Notes under the pieces: model-generated | Seen by the model: only the letters and a program-made list of their open reading frames with translations | Database searches by the model: none | Told to the model about the DNA's origin: nothing | From: Elusimicrobia bacterium RIFOXYA2_FULL_50_26 | GTDB lineage: Bacteria > Elusimicrobiota > Endomicrobiia > Endomicrobiales > XYA2-FULL-47-53 | Reading direction: 5' to 3' | Length of the DNA: 35,362 nt | Assembly: GCA_001800355.1 (NCBI GenBank) | Contig: MGVF01000019.1 | Location: forward strand, 1-35,362 | Made by a program: the position numbers and the translations under genes | Part shown: piece after piece, positions 18,566-31,895 of the stretch | Layout: each line of letters opens with the position of its first letter | Position numbering within the stretch: the first letter of the stretch is position 1

Positions 18566-18945
18566 AACAACCGAAAGATCGCTCCCGTTTGACAATCGCC
18601 ATGCGGGGGAGGAAAGTCCGGACTTCACCTTCATGTTGTTTGTGAAGAAAACGGTAGTGGGCAATTCCCATCCGTCGTTGCTTTGTAACGACGAGAGGTG
18701 CGAACAGAAACGCCATTTACCGAAAGGCAAATGGCCTTCCGCAAGTGTATTATGCGGAAGGACGCTCCGGTGTAATGCCGGGGCATGAAACGGCTAAATC
18801 CTTACTGGGAAGCAAGGCAATAGCGCATCAGTTTCTACCGGTGCGCGGTAAGCCGCTTGATCCGGCGGAGTAATCCGTCGGACAGAGAAATGATCTTGGC
18901 CTGCCGATGAGGCGGGAAACAGAATCCGGTGTACAGGTTGTTCTA
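18563..18945 (+). ncRNA. rnpB: RNase P RNA, class A-like
   Basis: The catalytic RNA of RNase P, which trims tRNA 5' ends. The universally conserved P4 5' strand (GAGGAAAGTCCGGAC, from 18609) and the matching 3' strand (ACAGAATCCGG, 18919-18929) are present, as is the GACAGAGAAATGA segment near 18881. The ends GAACAACC (18565-18572) and GGTTGTTC (18936-18943) pair as helix P1, which extends by two pairs to 18563 and 18945. The length of about 380 nt is normal. No terminator with a U-tract follows; the next hairpin is miniature element B. The exact ends are set by pairing and could shift a few bases. Confidence 0.94.
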
Positions 18946-18996
18946 TACAGTAAACAGTTAGCAGTGATCAGTGAAGGTTAAAGACTTTCATTTATT

Positions 18997-19130
18997 GTGT
19001 CTCTTTAGCCGTTTGAGGTCATTGCGAGCGAGAGCGAAGCAATCTCGATGTTGCTTCCGATGAAAAGCGAGATTGCCGCGCCCTTTGGGCTCGCAATGAC
19101 GACGACAGCTTCAAAATGCTAAAGAGACAC
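18997..19130 (-). mobile_element. Miniature palindromic element, copy B (MITE-like)
   Basis: 134 bp, inverted relative to copy A, with perfect 13-bp terminal repeats. It is flanked by a perfect 8-bp duplication CATTTATT (18989-18996 and 19131-19138). It lies 51 bp after rnpB and upstream of the TSUP gene, and codes for nothing. The identical flanks suggest a relatively recent insertion. Confidence 0.93.
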
Positions 19131-19176
19131 CATTTATTAAAACCGCTGGTTTAGTTATTGAGTGTCGGTAATTGCC

Positions 19177-19533
19177 ATGATTATCATATACATTCTACTT
19201 GGGTTTGCGGCGGGGGTTGTCAGCGGGCTGGTGGGCATAGGCGGCGGGATTATTTTGATACCGGCGCTTGTTTATTTTTTCGGCATGACCCAGGCAAAAG
19301 CTCAAGGCACTACGCTTGCCATAATGGTTCCGCCCATCGGGCTCCTTGCAGCCTGGGTATACTATAAACAGGGGAATGTAAACACCGGCATAGCGGCCTT
19401 CGTATGCCTGGGATTTTTTTTAGGGGGATTCCTCGGCGCAAATCTTGCTTCGGGATTCACTAATGAGACTTTACGTAAAATCTTCGGTTTTGTCCTCTTA
19501 ATCATAGCCCTCCGCATGATCCTCCAAAAGTAA
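19177..19533 (+). CDS. Half-size TauE/SafE (TSUP) family membrane protein
   Basis: A 118-residue integral membrane protein with about four hydrophobic segments. The first carries the family signature GLVGIGGGIILIPAL (about residues 16-30), followed by QAKAQGTTLAIMVP and a closing FGFVLLIIALRMIL. TSUP proteins move sulfite, sulfonates or other organic anions. Typical members have about 250 residues made of two such repeats; this is one repeat, so it may work as a dimer. Half-size members are known in many bacteria, so truncation is not implied. GTG at 19162 is an alternative start adding five residues; I prefer the ATG because it places the membrane segment at the N-terminus. No strong ribosome-binding site is visible. 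The substrate is unknown. Confidence 0.85.
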   Translation: MIIIYILLGFAAGVVSGLVGIGGGIILIPALVYFFGMTQAKAQGTTLAIMVPPIGLLAAWVYYKQGNVNTGIAAFVCLGFFLGGFLGANLASGFTNETLRKIFGFVLLIIALRMILQK

Positions 19534-19542
19534 TAACTTCTA

Positions 19543-19668
19543 ATGTTACGCAGCGTGTCATTGCGAGGAGCCTTCGCGACGAAGCAATCTCGTCGTTTTG
19601 ATACGAAACAGCGAGATTGCTTCGCTTCGCTCGCAATGACAGCAACTTTGGCATTTCTTGCGTAACAT
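19543..19668. repeat. Palindromic repeat with MITE-like core but different ends
   Basis: 126 bp with 10-bp terminal inverted repeats ATGTTACGCA / TGCGTAACAT. Inside are the same GTCATTGCGAG...GAAGCAATCTCG core and the same central ~35 bp (from CTCGTCGTTTTGATACG) as copy D. The GTGTCTCTTTAGC ends are absent, and no flanking duplication is seen. It fills most of the space between the TSUP gene and the mraZ promoter. Confidence 0.8.
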
Positions 19669-19706
19669 CAGCAATAATTCTTATATCTCACCTCTTTTCT
19701 TTTCTC

Positions 19707-19735
19707 TTGACAAATTTGCGTGCTAGTTGTATACT
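19707..19735 (+). promoter_or_regulatory. Promoter of the dcw cluster (PmraZ)
   Basis: -35 TTGACA (19707-19712), a 17-bp spacer, and -10 TATACT (19730-19735). The start site should be near 19742, where the MraZ boxes begin. Confidence 0.88.
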
Positions 19736-19741
19736 TATACC

Positions 19742-19767
19742 AAAGTGGTGGAAAGTGGTGGAAAGTG
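19742..19767 (+). promoter_or_regulatory. Three phased MraZ boxes
   Basis: AAAGTG occurs at 19742, 19752 and 19762, spaced exactly 10 bp (the first two units are identical AAAGTGGTGG decamers). This matches the repeated AAAGTG-type target reported for MraZ in mollicutes, placed over the expected transcription start. The pattern implies autorepression of the division cluster by MraZ. Confidence 0.85.
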
Positions 19768-19787
19768 TACAGCAGAGGCGAACGCGA

Positions 19788-20234
19788 ATGAAAACGACAA
19801 ACGGGACAATGTACATAGGCCAGTACACACACTCCTTCGACTCAAAAAACCGCCTTTTTCTTCCTTCGCGCTTCCGCACCCGCAGCGCGTTGTTCGTTTT
19901 AACGAGGGGACTCGAAGAATGTCTTTACCTCTATGATACCGCCGCCTGGCAAAAAGTAATTATAAAACTCGAAGAACTGTCGCTGCCGGATAAAATTGAA
20001 GAACGCGCTTTTAAACGCGCGCTTTTATCCGGGGCAAACGAGGTTGTGCCGGATAACCAGGGGAGAATCCTGCTGCCGCAAAACCTTATAGAGTATGCTG
20101 CTATCGGCAAGGAAGTCATGATTATAGGCGTCGGTAACCGCCTGGAAATCTGGGATAGCAAGCGCTGGGAAAAATACTTCAGGGAAAAGGCGGACACATC
20201 CTTCCGCAACATGGCCGCCAAACTGGAAATTTAA
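19788..20234 (+). CDS. mraZ: Transcriptional regulator MraZ
   Basis: A 148-residue DNA-binding protein with two AbrB-like swapped-hairpin repeats. The first repeat holds YTHSFDSKNRLFLPSRFR, and the second GANEVVPDNQGRILLPQNL. The DxKxR and DxxGR signatures are both present. It forms a ring-shaped oligomer that binds tandem boxes in front of its own gene. I chose ATG 19788, with AGAGGCG about 8 nt upstream; ATG 19809 is possible, and a longer open frame back to 19617 runs through the promoter and a repeat, so it is rejected. It is the first gene of the dcw cluster, 6 bp before rsmH. Confidence 0.95.
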   Translation: MKTTNGTMYIGQYTHSFDSKNRLFLPSRFRTRSALFVLTRGLEECLYLYDTAAWQKVIIKLEELSLPDKIEERAFKRALLSGANEVVPDNQGRILLPQNLIEYAAIGKEVMIIGVGNRLEIWDSKRWEKYFREKADTSFRNMAAKLEI

Positions 20235-20240
20235 TAAAAA

Positions 20241-21131
20241 ATGGAACAATCCACTTATCACAAACCTGTGATGACGGCCGAGGTCGGGGAATATCTTATA
20301 AACAACCCTTCGGGGATTATAATTGATTGTACCCTTGGAGGCGGCGGGCATAGCGCGTATCTACTTGAGCGTTACCCGTCCTTGCGCGTGATAGGCATTG
20401 ATGCCGACGAGGAAGCCACCGGCGAAGCAGCCCGCAACCTTGAACGGTTCGCCAACCGCGTGCAGATAATCAGGGAAAATTTTAAAAACATCGCGGCGGT
20501 GTGCTCCGCGCTTAACATTCGTGCGGTCAACGGCATACTGGCCGATCTCGGCGTTTCATCCAGGCAGCTTGATGACATTGAGCGCGGGTTCGGATTTTTG
20601 TCTCCAAGGCTTGACATGAGAATGGATAAACGGCTTGGGGCGGACGCGGAACACATCGTCAACACAATGGGCGAAACTGAACTCGCGAATCTTTTTTATA
20701 CGCTGGGAGGAGAATTTTTCAGCCGCCCGATTGCACGCGCAATAGTGCGGGCGCGCGAACGCCGCCGCATAACTTCGGGACAGGAACTTGCCGAAACCGT
20801 GCAAAAGGTAAAATACCGTAAAGGCAAAATACATCCCGCCACGAAGGTATTCCAGGCGCTGCGAATCGCGGTAAACACTGAACTTGATAATCTTACAAAC
20901 CTTCTAAATGATGCTCCCGCCCTGCTTGCTTCCGGCGGCAGGATGGTTATACTCAGCTACCATTCACTTGAGGATCGCATAGTTAAGAATAATTTCAGGT
21001 CCCTTGCCCATGAAGGCATATACCGTTTATTGACGAAGAAAGTCGTTCCTCCTTCCGAGAATGAGATTTCAGAGAATCCGCGAAGCCGGAGCGCAAAGCT
21101 GCGCGCGGTAGAAAAAAATGTGTCTCTTTAG
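20241..21131 (+). CDS. rsmH: 16S rRNA (cytosine1402-N4)-methyltransferase RsmH, C-terminus altered by a miniature element
   Basis: A 296-residue SAM-dependent enzyme (also MraW) that methylates N4 of C1402 in 16S rRNA. The SAM motif DCTLGGGGHSAYLL lies at about 29-42. Family blocks GILADLGVSSRQLDD, RLDMRMD, FQALRIAVNTEL and LSYHSLEDRIVK are all present. The conserved tail RSRSAKLRAVEK is intact. The last residues NVSL and the TAG stop (21129-21131) come from miniature element C, which begins at 21120. From the flanking duplication I infer an original tail of EKIQSIVKTEKTAQ with a stop 20 bp before ftsL. Catalysis should be unaffected. No clear ribosome-binding site precedes the ATG, so coupling with mraZ is likely. 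Confidence 0.95.
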   Translation: MEQSTYHKPVMTAEVGEYLINNPSGIIIDCTLGGGGHSAYLLERYPSLRVIGIDADEEATGEAARNLERFANRVQIIRENFKNIAAVCSALNIRAVNGILADLGVSSRQLDDIERGFGFLSPRLDMRMDKRLGADAEHIVNTMGETELANLFYTLGGEFFSRPIARAIVRARERRRITSGQELAETVQKVKYRKGKIHPATKVFQALRIAVNTELDNLTNLLNDAPALLASGGRMVILSYHSLEDRIVKNNFRSLAHEGIYRLLTKKVVPPSENEISENPRSRSAKLRAVEKNVSL

Positions 21132-21255
21132 CAGTCTGAGGTCATTGCGAGCGAGAGCGAAGCAATCTTGTTGTTTGACGACTATAAAGGCGAGATTGCT
21201 TCGTCACTTCGTTCCTCGCAATGACGACGACAACTTCTAAACGCTAAAGAGACAC
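21120..21255 (-). mobile_element. Miniature palindromic element, copy C, inside the end of rsmH
   Basis: 136 bp, inverted relative to copy A, with perfect 13-bp terminal repeats. The flanks AAAAAAAT (21112-21119) and GAAAAAAT (21256-21263) form an 8-bp duplication with one mismatch. It supplies the rsmH stop codon and now separates rsmH from ftsL by 186 bp in an otherwise compact cluster. Confidence 0.92.
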
Positions 21256-21317
21256 GAAAAAATTCAGTCAATAGTCAAAACAGAAAAAACTGCACAATAA
21301 CTTCGAGGTCAATTCCG

Positions 21318-21572
21318 ATGGCGCTGCGATACTTCTACCTGCTTTTGACGATTGCTTTCATTCTTTCATTTTACGTCTGGCAACAGACGCAGTCCATGCG
21401 CCTCGGGTACAAAGTTGATGCCCTGCGCGGCGAATGCGAAAAATGGGAACAGGAAAATTACGAGTGGAGGCTCAAAGTCAACCGTCTAATCTCGATGGAA
21501 CGGCTTGACCGGGTAGCGCAAGATAATAAACTTATTACGCCGGACGATAAAATTACTCACTATCTGAAATGA
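21318..21572 (+). CDS. ftsL: Cell division protein FtsL
   Basis: An 84-residue bitopic membrane protein. A short N-terminus is followed by one membrane segment (about residues 5-21) and a periplasmic coiled coil (about 25-65, KVDALRGECEKWEQEN). FtsL joins FtsB and FtsQ to activate septal peptidoglycan synthesis by FtsW-FtsI. Sequence conservation in this family is low; the call rests on size, topology and position between rsmH and ftsI. GAGG lies 9 nt before the ATG. The stop overlaps the ftsI start (ATGA). Confidence 0.87.
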   Translation: MALRYFYLLLTIAFILSFYVWQQTQSMRLGYKVDALRGECEKWEQENYEWRLKVNRLISMERLDRVAQDNKLITPDDKITHYLK

Positions 21573-23290
21573 AAAACCGCAACCGCACCATTATCCCGAT
21601 TATTGCCGCCATGCTCGCCTTTTCGGCCATAGGCGCCCGCCTTTTCTTTCTCCAGGTCTGGCACCAGGAGGAGATATATCGCCGGGCACAAAAGCTGGTA
21701 TGCCGCGAACACCCCGAGATGCCGCTGCGTGGCATGATATTGGACAAGCAGGACAGGGTCCTTGCCATGAGCGTAAAAGAATATTCACTTTTCGCAGATA
21801 CAAACCTGATGACGGAACCTGCCGAAGTTGAACGCCAACTCGCCAAATTACATGTTTCCATACCTCGCGGGATACTGGCCGCAAAAAATGGGTCGTCATA
21901 CATTCCGCTTACCGATTCGCTTGATCTTGAAACTGTAAAGCGTATCAAACAGTTGAGGCAGCCCGGCCTGGGATTTGAATCCAAATTCAGCCGCCGTCAC
22001 CCTGAAGGAAAAATGGCCTGCCATATCCTGGGCGTGGTAGGCAAAGACAATGCCGGCCTTGAAGGCATCGAATACGTGGCCAACTCCTATCTAACCGGGG
22101 AAAAACTTAAGAATCTGCGTATGCGCGACGGCAGAGGCAGGGAGATAGCGGAACGGCTGCTGAAACCCGAAGAATTGCGCGGCGCCGACGTCCGGCTGAC
22201 AATAGACCGCAACATACAGTTTATCGCCGAACAGGAAATTGACCGCGCATGGCGACAGTCCAACGCAAAGAAAGCGATGATCATCATCCAGGATCCATCG
22301 TCCGGCGAGATTCTTGCCATGGCATCCCGCCCGAATTACGACCCGGGCGACTTTTCAGGTTCATGGAGCGCGCTTAAAAACCCAGCGGTAAGCGATATTT
22401 TTGAACCCGGCTCGACTTTCAAGGCCATCACGGCTGCGGCGGCGCTTGAAGAAAAACTTGTTAAACGCTCCGAAGTATTATGGTGCGAAGACGGCAAGTA
22501 CAAGATGTACGGCCACACAATAAACGACCACGAAAAAAAGGGGTTGCTGACCTTTGACCAGATAATGGAGTACTCGTCGAATATCGGTTTCGCCAAGGTG
22601 AGCCAGCGGCTCGGCAAGGAAAAACTTTATCGTTACATACGGCAGTTCGGTTTTAACACCGTAACCGGCATAGATCTTCCAGGCGAAGCGCGCGGCCTGT
22701 TGCGAGAGCCTGAAAAGTGGGACGGATTATCGTTGCCTACAATTTCATTCGGCCAGGGAATAGGCGTTACGGCATTGCAGATATCAAACGCTTATGCCGC
22801 GCTGTTCAACGGCGGGTTATTGCTGGAGCCGCGGCTTATTGACGAGATACGCAGGCCTGACGGAGAAATAATTTATCGTTCCGAACGGAGGGTTATACGC
22901 GCCGCCGTTTCACCTGAGGTCGCAAATGAAATCCACGAAATGCTGATCGGAGTAGTGGAAAAAGGGACGGGACGCGCGGCAAAAGTGCCGTATTATTCAG
23001 TCGGCGGTAAAACAGGCACCGCGCAGAAACGCGACCCGTCCACTAAAAAATACTCGCCTACTTCTTATATCGCGTCGTTCTGCGGAGTGATACCGGCGAA
23101 CAATCCTCGGATGGTTATAACAGTTGTTCTCGACGAACCGAAAGGCGATTACTGGGGGTCGTCACGCGCGGCGCCCGTGTTTAACAAGGTGGCTGCGCGC
23201 GCCGTCAGCTACCTTAGAATCAGCCCTGACCAGCAAACGATTTACCTTGCAAAAGGCGGGAATGAAACAACCGTAGCGTTAAAGAGATGA
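21569..23290 (+). CDS. ftsI: Septal peptidoglycan transpeptidase FtsI (PBP3-type)
   Basis: A 573-residue class B penicillin-binding protein that crosslinks septal peptidoglycan. It has one N-terminal membrane anchor (about residues 7-27) and a dimerisation domain starting RGMILDKQDRVLAMS. The transpeptidase domain carries the catalytic S282-T-F-K285, S336-x-N338 and K481-T-G-T. All active-site motifs are intact. There is no C-terminal PASTA domain, so it is not of the PBP2x or Spo type. The start overlaps ftsL by 4 bp, and murE begins 10 bp after the stop. It should act with FtsW, encoded downstream. Confidence 0.95.
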   Translation: MKNRNRTIIPIIAAMLAFSAIGARLFFLQVWHQEEIYRRAQKLVCREHPEMPLRGMILDKQDRVLAMSVKEYSLFADTNLMTEPAEVERQLAKLHVSIPRGILAAKNGSSYIPLTDSLDLETVKRIKQLRQPGLGFESKFSRRHPEGKMACHILGVVGKDNAGLEGIEYVANSYLTGEKLKNLRMRDGRGREIAERLLKPEELRGADVRLTIDRNIQFIAEQEIDRAWRQSNAKKAMIIIQDPSSGEILAMASRPNYDPGDFSGSWSALKNPAVSDIFEPGSTFKAITAAAALEEKLVKRSEVLWCEDGKYKMYGHTINDHEKKGLLTFDQIMEYSSNIGFAKVSQRLGKEKLYRYIRQFGFNTVTGIDLPGEARGLLREPEKWDGLSLPTISFGQGIGVTALQISNAYAALFNGGLLLEPRLIDEIRRPDGEIIYRSERRVIRAAVSPEVANEIHEMLIGVVEKGTGRAAKVPYYSVGGKTGTAQKRDPSTKKYSPTSYIASFCGVIPANNPRMVITVVLDEPKGDYWGSSRAAPVFNKVAARAVSYLRISPDQQTIYLAKGGNETTVALKR

Positions 23291-28748: not shown

Positions 28749-29885
28749 ATGGGGCTGATGAAAGGCAAGAAAAACGACGCAACGTATAGCACTGATTTCA
28801 CGCTCCTTTTGTTAACCGCAATACTGGTTACATTCGGCACGATTATGGTTTTTTCGTCGAGTGTAATTATGGCTGAAATTCGCTTCCAAACACCATACAT
28901 CTTTATCATCAAACATGTTATATGGGTAGCCGCCGGCGCTGTCGCCATGTTTGCATTCTCGCGCTACGACTACCGTAAACTTCAGGAACTCACGCGGCCG
29001 CTTATAATAACGGCCGTAACGCTATTGGTGCTTGTCGTGATAATCGGCTCGGAAAAAGGCGGCGCAAAACGCTGGTTTAAGCTGGGGCCGATGAGCTTCC
29101 AACCTTCGGAATTCGCCAAGCTCGCGCTTGTGATAGCAATGGCCGATTTCATGGATAGAAAAAAAAGTCGGCTGAATAAGATGAAAGGGCTTTTACCTGC
29201 CCTGGGGCTTGCGGGCTTGTTCTGCTTTCTTATATCACTTGAGCCCGATTTAGGCACGCCGGTAATAATGGTTGCGGTTACGGTGGCCATGCTGTTCGTA
29301 GCCGGCGCGCGCCTGGGACATTTGCTATTAATAGGTATATCGTTCGTGCCGCTGGTAGCCCTGGAAATTCTGCGAAAGCCGTACCGCCTTGCGCGCATGA
29401 AGGCGTACCTGCAATCAGTGGGCGATATCAGCTCCAGTTCATACCAGTTGGATCAATCAATCCTTGCGCTGGGCAACGGCGGTTTTTTCGGCAGGGGGCT
29501 TGCCCACAGCCAGATGAAACTGTTTTACCTGCCGGAACCGCATACGGATTTCATTTTCCCTATAATAGGCGAGGAAACAGGATTCATAGGCACGATAATA
29601 CTTATTGTTTTATTTATCATATTTGCCTGGCGGGGATGGATGATATCTAAAAACAGCCCTGATTTCTTCGGAGGGATGCTGGCCATGGGCATCACTCTTT
29701 TGATAACAACCCAGGCCGTTTTCAACATGGGTGTGGCGACGGGGTTACTGCCCACCAAGGGGCTGCCTTTGCCGTTTGTATCTTTCGGCGGCACCGCTCT
29801 TGTCATTAATATGGCGGGGGTAGGCATACTGTTGAACGTTTCGCGGCACATGAAAAAACATCAGGCGAAAAAAGGGAATTATTGA
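28749..29885 (+). CDS. ftsW: Septal peptidoglycan glycosyltransferase FtsW (SEDS)
   Basis: A 378-residue polytopic SEDS protein (about ten membrane segments) that polymerises lipid II at the septum with FtsI. Signature blocks are GGAKRWFKLGPMSFQPSEFAK, EPDLGTPVIM, YQLDQSILALGNGGFFGRGL, LPEPHTDFIFPIIGEETGF and LPTKGLPLPFVSFGGTAL. I chose ATG 28749, which has GGAGAAAGG 8 nt upstream; in-frame ATGs at 28719 and 28758 are alternatives, and 28719 would begin within the possible -10 box. RodA is less likely, because the gene lies between murD and murG in the dcw cluster. Confidence 0.94.
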   Translation: MGLMKGKKNDATYSTDFTLLLLTAILVTFGTIMVFSSSVIMAEIRFQTPYIFIIKHVIWVAAGAVAMFAFSRYDYRKLQELTRPLIITAVTLLVLVVIIGSEKGGAKRWFKLGPMSFQPSEFAKLALVIAMADFMDRKKSRLNKMKGLLPALGLAGLFCFLISLEPDLGTPVIMVAVTVAMLFVAGARLGHLLLIGISFVPLVALEILRKPYRLARMKAYLQSVGDISSSSYQLDQSILALGNGGFFGRGLAHSQMKLFYLPEPHTDFIFPIIGEETGFIGTIILIVLFIIFAWRGWMISKNSPDFFGGMLAMGITLLITTQAVFNMGVATGLLPTKGLPLPFVSFGGTALVINMAGVGILLNVSRHMKKHQAKKGNY

Positions 29886-30973
29886 TGCCAGAACTGAAAA
29901 CAATTATTATTGCGGCGGGGGGAACCGGAGGCCACCTGTACCCGGGCATTGCGCTGGCGCGGGAACTTGCCCGTCGCAACTTTACACCGGTGTTTATCGT
30001 GCGCGAAAACGATCCGGCGCAAGATATACTGGCACGTGAACAATTTGCGTTTCGCGCCATTCCCGTGCGAGGAATGCCCAGGAAAATATCCTTTAGATTC
30101 GCCGGATTTATATATTTTCTTTTTAAAGGCCTGTTTGCAACGGCGCGTGTTCTTGGAGAATTGAAACCGGAAGCGGTAGTGGGCATGGGCGGCTACATTT
30201 CATTTCCAGCCGTATTCATTGCGCGATTGATGGGGATGCGGACGCTTATACACGAGCAGAATTATATTCCCGGGCTTAGCAACCGCATCCTGTCGCATTT
30301 TTGCGGTACCGTTGCCGTAAGTTTCGAACAATCCGCTTCATTCTTCAGCCGGCGCAAAACCATAGTAACCGGCAACCCCGTGCGCGCAGACCTGTTTAAC
30401 GCGCAGCCGCGCGAGGCATACGCCTTCTTCGGCCTTGACCCGGCCAAATGCACCGTGTTGGTTTTCGGCGGAAGCCTTGGAGCTTCGGCGCTGAACACGG
30501 CAATCGTCTCTACACTGCCGGAGCTTGCCGACGCAAAAGATAAGCTTCAATTCATACACCTGGCCGGCAAACGCGACGCCGATACGGTTGCAGCAGCATA
30601 TAAGGCCGCCGGCATACGTGCCGCCGTGCGCGCCTATCTCCACGAGATCGGGCTTGCATATTCGGCCGCCGACCTTGTAATCTGCCGCGCCGGCGCCACG
30701 ACTGTTACGGAACTGTCGTTCCTTAAAAAGAAGGCAGTGCTTGTCCCGTACCCTCATGCAACCGCCGACCATCAGCACTTCAACGCCTCGCTACTGGTAC
30801 AATCAGGCCAGGCAGTGGAAATACGCGAAAACGCGCTAACGCCCGCGCTGCTGGCAAGCCGGATCGTGGCTGCCGCCGAAACATTCGCAACACACACCGC
30901 CCCACCGCCCCCGCCGCCCGCCCTGCCACAATCCCGCCTTGCCGACGCCGTTAGTGCCTCTTTAGCGTTTTGA
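29885..30973 (+). CDS. murG: UDP-GlcNAc:undecaprenyl-PP-MurNAc-pentapeptide transferase MurG, C-terminus altered by a miniature element
   Basis: A 362-residue GT-B glycosyltransferase that turns lipid I into lipid II at the inner membrane face. The N-terminal GGTGGHLYPG loop (about 12-21), VVGMGGYISFP, LIHEQNYIPGLSNR and VTGNPVR are present. The C-terminal domain has LVFGGSLGASALN, ICRAGATTVTEL and LVPYPHATADHQ, so the donor and acceptor sites look complete. The ATG overlaps the ftsW stop by 1 bp (TGATG). The last six residues, SASLAF, and the TGA stop come from element D, which starts at 30954. From the flanking duplication I infer an older tail AVVNIVLYTKR with its stop at 31117. A proline run (PPPPPP) sits near the end. 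It is the last dcw gene in the window; murC, ftsQ, ftsA and ftsZ do not follow. Confidence 0.95.
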   Translation: MPELKTIIIAAGGTGGHLYPGIALARELARRNFTPVFIVRENDPAQDILAREQFAFRAIPVRGMPRKISFRFAGFIYFLFKGLFATARVLGELKPEAVVGMGGYISFPAVFIARLMGMRTLIHEQNYIPGLSNRILSHFCGTVAVSFEQSASFFSRRKTIVTGNPVRADLFNAQPREAYAFFGLDPAKCTVLVFGGSLGASALNTAIVSTLPELADAKDKLQFIHLAGKRDADTVAAAYKAAGIRAAVRAYLHEIGLAYSAADLVICRAGATTVTELSFLKKKAVLVPYPHATADHQHFNASLLVQSGQAVEIRENALTPALLASRIVAAAETFATHTAPPPPPPALPQSRLADAVSASLAF

Positions 30974-31082
30974 AGTTGTCGTCGTCATTGCGAGCGGAGC
31001 GAAGCAATCTCGTCGTTTTGATACGAAACAGCAAGATTGCTTCGCTCTCGCTCGCAATGACCTCAAACTGCTAAAGAGACAC
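30954..31082 (+). mobile_element. Miniature palindromic element, copy D, inside the end of murG
   Basis: 129 bp in the same orientation as copy A. The left terminal repeat has one change (GTGCCTCTTTAGC); the right is perfect. The flanks CGCCGTTA (30946-30953) and CGCCGTTG (31083-31090) form an 8-bp duplication with one mismatch. It supplies the murG stop codon and lies directly upstream of the vapBC promoter. The internal sequence is very close to copy E. Confidence 0.92.
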
Positions 31083-31153: not shown

Positions 31154-31348
31154 ATGACACGTACCAATATTGATATTAATGACAGGCTTATAAAAGAAGG
31201 CATGAGCATAACGCATTGCAAAACAAAAAAAGAGCTGGTTAATTATGCCCTGGAAGAACTTGTAAAAATAAAACACCGCAAGGGCATCCTTAAATTCGCC
31301 GGCACAAAATGCTGGAAAGGGAATCTCGATAAAATGAGAACAATGTAA
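31154..31348 (+). CDS. vapB: VapB-type antitoxin
   Basis: A 64-residue antitoxin. The N-terminus TRTNIDINDRLIKEGM is a ribbon-helix-helix-like start typical of the VapB family that pairs with PIN toxins, followed by TKKELVNYALEELVK. The C-terminal part (KFAGTKCWKGNLDKMRTM) is the expected toxin-binding tail. I chose ATG 31154 because AAAGGAG lies 7 nt upstream; a longer frame from 31088 crosses the promoter. The stop overlaps the toxin ATG by 1 bp (TAATG), the usual coupling. It should neutralise VapC and repress the operon. Confidence 0.9.
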   Translation: MTRTNIDINDRLIKEGMSITHCKTKKELVNYALEELVKIKHRKGILKFAGTKCWKGNLDKMRTM

Positions 31349-31749
31349 TGATTATCGTTGACACTTCCGTCTGGATTGAGCTGTTTCGTAATACCCATTC
31401 AGAGCATGCCGCTGCATTAAAGGACTTACTGGAAAACAGAAACGGCGAAATAGTACTAACCGATATTATAGTGATGGAGATTTTGCAGGGAATAAGCGAT
31501 GATAAAATCTTCGAAGAAATAAAACGCTATTTGCTTGAATTTCCTCTGATCGAAGCTCGTACGCCAGCCACCTACATACATTCCGCCCGATTGTACCGCT
31601 TATGCAGAAGAAAAGGGCTTATCGTTAGAAAAAGTATTGACCTGTTAATCGCGGCCATCGCAATTGAAAACCGGCTGGAAGTATTCCATCGCGACAGAGA
31701 CTTCGAAACAATAGCAACTGTTTCGGCGTTAAAAATCTACAAACCATGA
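31348..31749 (+). CDS. vapC: VapC-type PIN-domain toxin ribonuclease
   Basis: A 133-residue PIN-domain protein. The acidic active site is complete: D5 (MIIVDTSVWIELFR), E44 (VMEILQG), D98 (SIDLLIAA) and D116/D118 (HRDRDFE). VapC toxins cut RNA, often initiator tRNA or the rRNA sarcin-ricin loop; the target here is unknown. The ATG overlaps the vapB stop. The TGA stop lies inside the left 8-bp duplication of element E, so the protein end is unchanged by that insertion. The gene pair is bracketed by elements D and E within otherwise housekeeping DNA. Confidence 0.93.
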   Translation: MIIVDTSVWIELFRNTHSEHAAALKDLLENRNGEIVLTDIIVMEILQGISDDKIFEEIKRYLLEFPLIEARTPATYIHSARLYRLCRRKGLIVRKSIDLLIAAIAIENRLEVFHRDRDFETIATVSALKIYKP

Positions 31750-31751
31750 TG

Positions 31752-31879
31752 GTGTCTCTTTAGCGTTTTGAAGTTGTCGTCGTCATTGCGAGCGGAGCGA
31801 AGCAATCTCATCGTTTTGATACGAAACATCGAGATTGCTTCGCTCTCGCTCGCAATGACCTCAGACTGCAAAGAGACAC
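31752..31879 (+). mobile_element. Miniature palindromic element, copy E, after vapC
   Basis: 128 bp, same orientation as copies A and D. The right terminal repeat lacks one T (GCAAAGAGACAC). It is flanked by a perfect 8-bp duplication CCATGATG (31744-31751 and 31880-31887), the left copy of which contains the vapC stop codon. Before insertion, surE would have started about 13 bp after the vapC stop. Confidence 0.93.
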
Positions 31880-31895
31880 CCATGATGAGAGCTGA

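Follow-up and report, generated by a model that had tools for sequence, protein, structure and literature searches.

A miniature transposon supplies the stop codon and last residues of rsmH in an Elusimicrobia draft genome

The last three residues and the stop codon of RsmH (the 16S rRNA methyltransferase MraW) are supplied by a MITE, element C, that lies between rsmH and ftsL in the window, i.e., the 35,362-nt stretch of DNA analysed here, which makes up an entire contig (C19) of a draft genome of 2.01 Mb in 138 contigs. RsmH now ends ...KLRAVEKNVSL-stop (...RSRSAKLRAVEKNVSL): AVEK is followed by N, then by the element-encoded VSL, with the TAG at element nt 10–12. A first-pass annotation of this DNA had described the ending in this way and attributed it to the element, and both statements hold when the sequence is read directly and recomputed. 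Despite the new end the MraW domain is complete (PF01795, residues 6–292, profile positions 3–308 of 309), and the altered residues fall after the domain match, which stops at residue 292. The element-made end of rsmH is thus real, but it is an ordinary effect of such mobile repeats. The positions of the features are collected in Table 1.

Table 1. Features of the rsmH–ftsL junction and further MITE copies, in window coordinates
Feature	Position	Strand	Details
rsmH (16S rRNA methyltransferase, MraW)	20241..21131	+	296 aa; Pfam Methyltransf_5, 1.3e-97, residues 6–292
Left target-duplication copy, G A7 T	21111..21119	+	sequence; duplications of the family are typically 8 bp
MITE element C, 136 bp	21120..21255	+	long hairpin, inverted ends
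Left terminal inverted repeat GTGTCTCTTTAGC, carries the TAG	21120..21132	+	end-pattern search
TAG, current rsmH stop	21129..21131	+	element nt 10–12; sequence read
Right terminal inverted repeat GCTAAAGAGACAC	21243..21255	+	end-pattern search
Right target-duplication copy GAAAAAAT (G A6 T)	21256..21263	+	sequence
Putative former rsmH tail EKIQSIVKTEKTAQ-TAA (E = 21256–21258), now untranslated	21256..21300	+	reconstruction
GAGGT, Shine–Dalgarno-like, 8 nt before the ftsL ATG and downstream of the element	21305..21309	+	sequence; putative role
ftsL, 84 aa	21318..21572	+	start agrees with FtsL of relatives in the order
MITE copy D, ends murG (29882–30973)	30954..31082	-	murG present end ..ADAVSASLAF-stop, excised ..ADAVVNIVLYTKR-stop
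MITE copy E	31752..31880	-	8-bp duplication CCATGATG (31744–31751) holds the stop of a PIN-domain gene (31348–31749)

Element C has the properties by which bacterial MITEs are recognized: it is short and multicopy, with terminal inverted repeats and a target duplication of fixed length. Searching the genome with the end pattern gave 190 single inverted ends when up to one mismatch was allowed; a reversed-pattern control gave 2. About 68 paired copies, mostly 122–136 bp and without coding capacity, were gathered from fetched stretches of the genome, a list of copies that is incomplete, and their inverted ends match GTGTCTCTTTAGC/GCTAAAGAGACAC with few mismatches. In the 8-bp register 18 of these 68 copies have exact target duplications, 25 have one mismatch and 12 have two; a 9-bp duplication was rejected because the 8-bp register fits across the family. 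Since so many paired copies occur, typically with 8-bp duplications, element C represents a true insertion. Three further members form a subgroup with it, being 93–96% identical to element C, and compared with these closest sisters it carries two private changes in 136 bp (about 1.5%), which would leave little time since the insertion for other changes. The paired-end pattern was found only in this genome among 341 of the phylum, and a literature search found no paper linking Endomicrobia with MITEs. The RNA fold of 21105–21270 has a free energy of -64.8 kcal/mol (z -5.4); Rfam gave no match across 18900–21700.

The insertion, the MITE family, the 8-bp duplication and the present reading frame are all read directly. 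We consider it likely that the element inserted at GAAAAAAT and that the left duplicate later gained an A, which brought the TAG of the element into use as the rsmH stop. Specifically, the element, a non-autonomous transposon whose MITE family is specific to the lineage, would have gone in some 12 codons short of the original rsmH stop, or very close to it, duplicating 8 bp, and the left duplicate would then have gained its A through slippage in the A-run. Translation of rsmH now passes EK, reads AAT from the left duplicate and GTG TCT CTT from the element, and stops at the TAG in the inverted repeat. The old tail would persist beyond the element as untranslated DNA, and ftsL retains its start codon and the GAGGT ribosome-binding site just downstream. 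We infer that A6 was the ancestral run length, that slippage caused the difference between the duplicates, that the events occurred in the order given, and that the insertion was tolerated through the retained ftsL signal.

The case for A6 rests on what each duplicate gives when the element is removed. Keeping the left (A7) copy leaves a frame that is open through ftsL and encodes a 395-aa RsmH–FtsL fusion, an arrangement seen in none of the relatives examined. Keeping the right copy gives a protein of 304 aa ending ...AVEKIQSIVKTEKTAQ, with a TAA at 21298–21300. Because A7 gives a fusion, and because I is common after EK while N is rare, A6 is the best ancestral reading. We compared RsmH with 107 homologues, 29 of them from the same order; the genomes covered included a single one of the same family. 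Directly after the EK/ER pair, 50 of the 107 have I and 2 have N, and within the order the counts are 17 and 0 of the 29. The A6 frame, which the first-pass annotation had linked to a common EKI ending, restores I, the commonest residue at this position.

Other parts of the reconstruction need amending. The right-copy frame does reach a stop before ftsL, but the 20 bp quoted for its distance from the ftsL ATG include the stop codon itself, and the spacing between stop and ATG is 17 nt. Nor is the restored junction especially compact, as had been claimed; it is looser than those of its relatives: relatives in the order end 0–4 residues after EK, as against 12 residues plus 17 nt in the reconstruction, and in most of them rsmH overlaps ftsL by about 8 nt (one relative, L048, whose stop falls at the start of the match, was left out of the junction-gap values). 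With all 29 order relatives ending so early the 12-residue tail is unusual; tails of at least 12 residues after EK occur in 3 of the 107 homologues and in none of the 29. The closest RsmH matches are from Endomicrobiales (Elusimicrobiota), and the best named match in GTDB contigs is only 56% identical, which rules out comparing the junctions at the DNA level. None of the relatives compared ends in NVSL. The former-tail segment is single copy in the genome. That the original tail can be reconstructed is accurate as regards the A6 frame, which is the best available, but not as regards the exact letters, which are uncertain because the segment has been non-coding since the insertion and free to drift.

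Given the low private divergence of the element, the reconstructed tail is plausible as a natural RsmH ending. The main alternative, which we think rather unlikely, is that RsmH originally ended much earlier, for example as EKI-stop, and that IQSIVKTEKTAQ was never its natural tail. A TAG at 21265–21267, now CAG and thus a single transition away, could have decayed once the stop of the inserted element had made it dispensable. The early stops of the order relatives fit such an ending, as do several homologues that end exactly EKI, and the segment has been untranslated ever since the insertion. However, this alternative needs one additional mutation, where the private divergence of about 1.5% would predict roughly 0.6 changes over the whole 39-nt tail.

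With the element in place, the consequences of the run length can be read for each phase. Without the extra A the frame would indeed run on into the element, as first suggested, adding 40 residues after EK before it meets a TAA at element nt 119–121, giving 332 aa; with A8 in the left copy RsmH would end ...EKKCVSLAV-stop. Two of the three phases entering the element stop within 21 nt, and one runs 40 residues. A-runs slip readily, and A6/A7 is an ordinary slip site. For the further suggestion in the first-pass annotation, that the slip was kept because it gave a short harmless tail, we found no evidence; single differences are the commonest class of target duplication (25 of 68), and two of the three phases stop early in any case. 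It is improbable that the slip was selected for exchanging a 40-residue tail for a short one, even though an A6 run next to the element would lengthen RsmH by those 40 residues and other capped genes retain near-original length: drift alone produces duplication differences in most copies, one case cannot demonstrate selection, and in L007 a deaminase-like gene still carries a longer tail coded by the element, which stops at element nt 52. The preferred explanation, insertion followed by a one-A slip, does not require such selection.

The difference between the duplicates can itself be read in two ways. The left copy has one A more than the right, as had been noted, when the runs are taken with their flanks (G-A7-T and G-A6-T), but set in the 8-bp register they read AAAAAAAT and GAAAAAAT, formally a substitution. 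An A/G substitution with no slipped A, and with EKNSVNSQ... as the frame before insertion, is in line with the abundance of one-mismatch duplications, 5 of the 25 differing at the first position, and the family yielded no unambiguous indel in a duplication; a sister copy in L003 (1492–1500, 1637–1644) is equally ambiguous, GAAACCCCC and GAACCCCC differing either by an extra left A or by A/G. As it stands, however, this frame fuses RsmH to FtsL, so the ancestor would have carried the fusion unless it had a stop that has since disappeared, and it places after EK the N found in 2 of the 107 homologues. On these reading-frame grounds we prefer the one-A slip, which appears to fit better, and regard the substitution as quite improbable. 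Least probable of all is an assembly or sequencing error in the A-run, with both copies A6 and RsmH carrying the 40-residue element tail (332 aa): the genome is a fragmented draft of 138 contigs and some platforms are well known for errors in runs such as A7, but short-read assemblies seldom err at 7 A, and the present call yields an RsmH of normal length.

Downstream of the element, the ftsL product has no Pfam match, and its N-terminus (MALRYFYLLL..FYVWQQTQS) was compared by eye with that of relatives. The spacing between rsmH and ftsL is now 186 nt. Given this separation and the strong fold, coupling by overlap, as the junctions of relatives allow, should end. Neither an intrinsic terminator nor a promoter on the + strand was found in the surroundings of the junction; with no terminator found and GAGGT kept, it is plausible that ftsL is still expressed.

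At least six other genes end inside a MITE copy. In six of them the stop lies at element nt 12, 19 or 20 and the present length is within 3 aa of that of the excised form: murG in the window (363 aa, excised 366), a histidine kinase (499, 496), a GNAT/FemAB-like protein (367, 367), a protein with no Pfam match (327, 327), a glycosyltransferase (240, 237) and a Kdo-transferase-like protein (417, 415). The TAG lies in one phase of the inverted repeat, and many copies have TAG or TGA at nt 17–20 in another. A cytidine/MafB19-type deaminase gene (L007:1088–1552) extends 52 nt into one of the copies and so has an element-encoded tail that ends ..RAKQS-stop.

The insertions also appear to cluster at stop codons. 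The duplication lies -2 to +10 nt from a stop codon in 14 of the 44 insertions outside coding interiors, where 4.4 would be expected for random non-coding positions and 5.6 ± 1.9 for AT-matched ones. This corresponds to none of 4000 simulations with the ORF cut-off set to 100 aa and to P of about 0.002 at 60 aa, but because the gene calls are mechanical the clustering is a lead and not a result. Stop-proximal copies include L006, L073, L082, L091, L100 and L102. We tentatively raise the possibility that the MITE prefers stop codons, either by targeting AT-rich, TAA-like 8-mers or by survival, and that its built-in stop makes it self-capping, a cheap replacement for the end of an operon gene. 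If this were true, rsmH and murG would be two products of self-capping insertion within the window; the clustering is a by-product worth following.

Judging by published analogues, MITE-made C-termini are already known, and so is the change from a long tail to a short one through an indel. In Coxiella burnetii QMITE2 at the 3′ end of enhC supplies C-terminal residues; strains differ by an indel that leads either to a tail of 33 residues encoded by the element or to a stop immediately ahead of QMITE2, and QMITE copies overlap the 3′ ends of several further genes by 1–50 bp (PMC5896051). The MITE-made C-terminus is the shared feature; element C differs in belonging to another family, in having its stop within the inverted repeat and in being seen here in one strain. 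Among the enterobacterial RU repeats (ERIC-type), RU-2 lengthens ECA4072 by four residues and RU-1 takes the place of the usual stop in ECA3499 (PMC2759123), but their sequence is different and their open frames are longer. The mycobacterial MIRUs are small repeats at gene junctions that do little harm to neighbours and preserve translational coupling through a short ORF of their own at start codons (PMC12548453), whereas element C leaves rsmH and ftsL 186 nt apart. What rsmH adds is a clean example of a small transposon rewriting the C-terminus of a conserved gene of the cell-division cluster without destroying it, repeated in one genome. Its main use is in annotation, for telling true from element-made C-termini, and it offers a test case for built-in stop codons that make insertions at gene ends tolerable.

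An autonomous transposase was sought in the draft genome among the ISL3, IS256/Mutator, IS1595 and IS4/IS5-type DDE families. No match to PF00872, PF12762 or PF01609 was found; the sole ORF matching PF01610 (ISL3), at G000:C136:13273–13962 (L188), carries an internal TAG, and no matching GTGTCTC ends were found within 1.5 kb of it in L188. The core of element C (nt 22–107) consists of two GTCATTGCGAG...GCAATC units in inverted orientation and thereby resembles the inverted doublets of REP doublets or REPINs, but in resemblance only, the core here being enclosed by 13-bp inverted repeats and 8-bp target duplications. Without the GTGTCTC inverted ends, the core matches in 18 of the 83 other genomes of the order. 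Examples of the REP-like core doublet are L189, L190, L192 and L037:833–919, and one genome of the same family has a core copy about 0.6 kb upstream of rsmH. In the window itself, a partial core at 19580–19640 overlaps the start of the mraZ ORF in the mechanical ORF listing.
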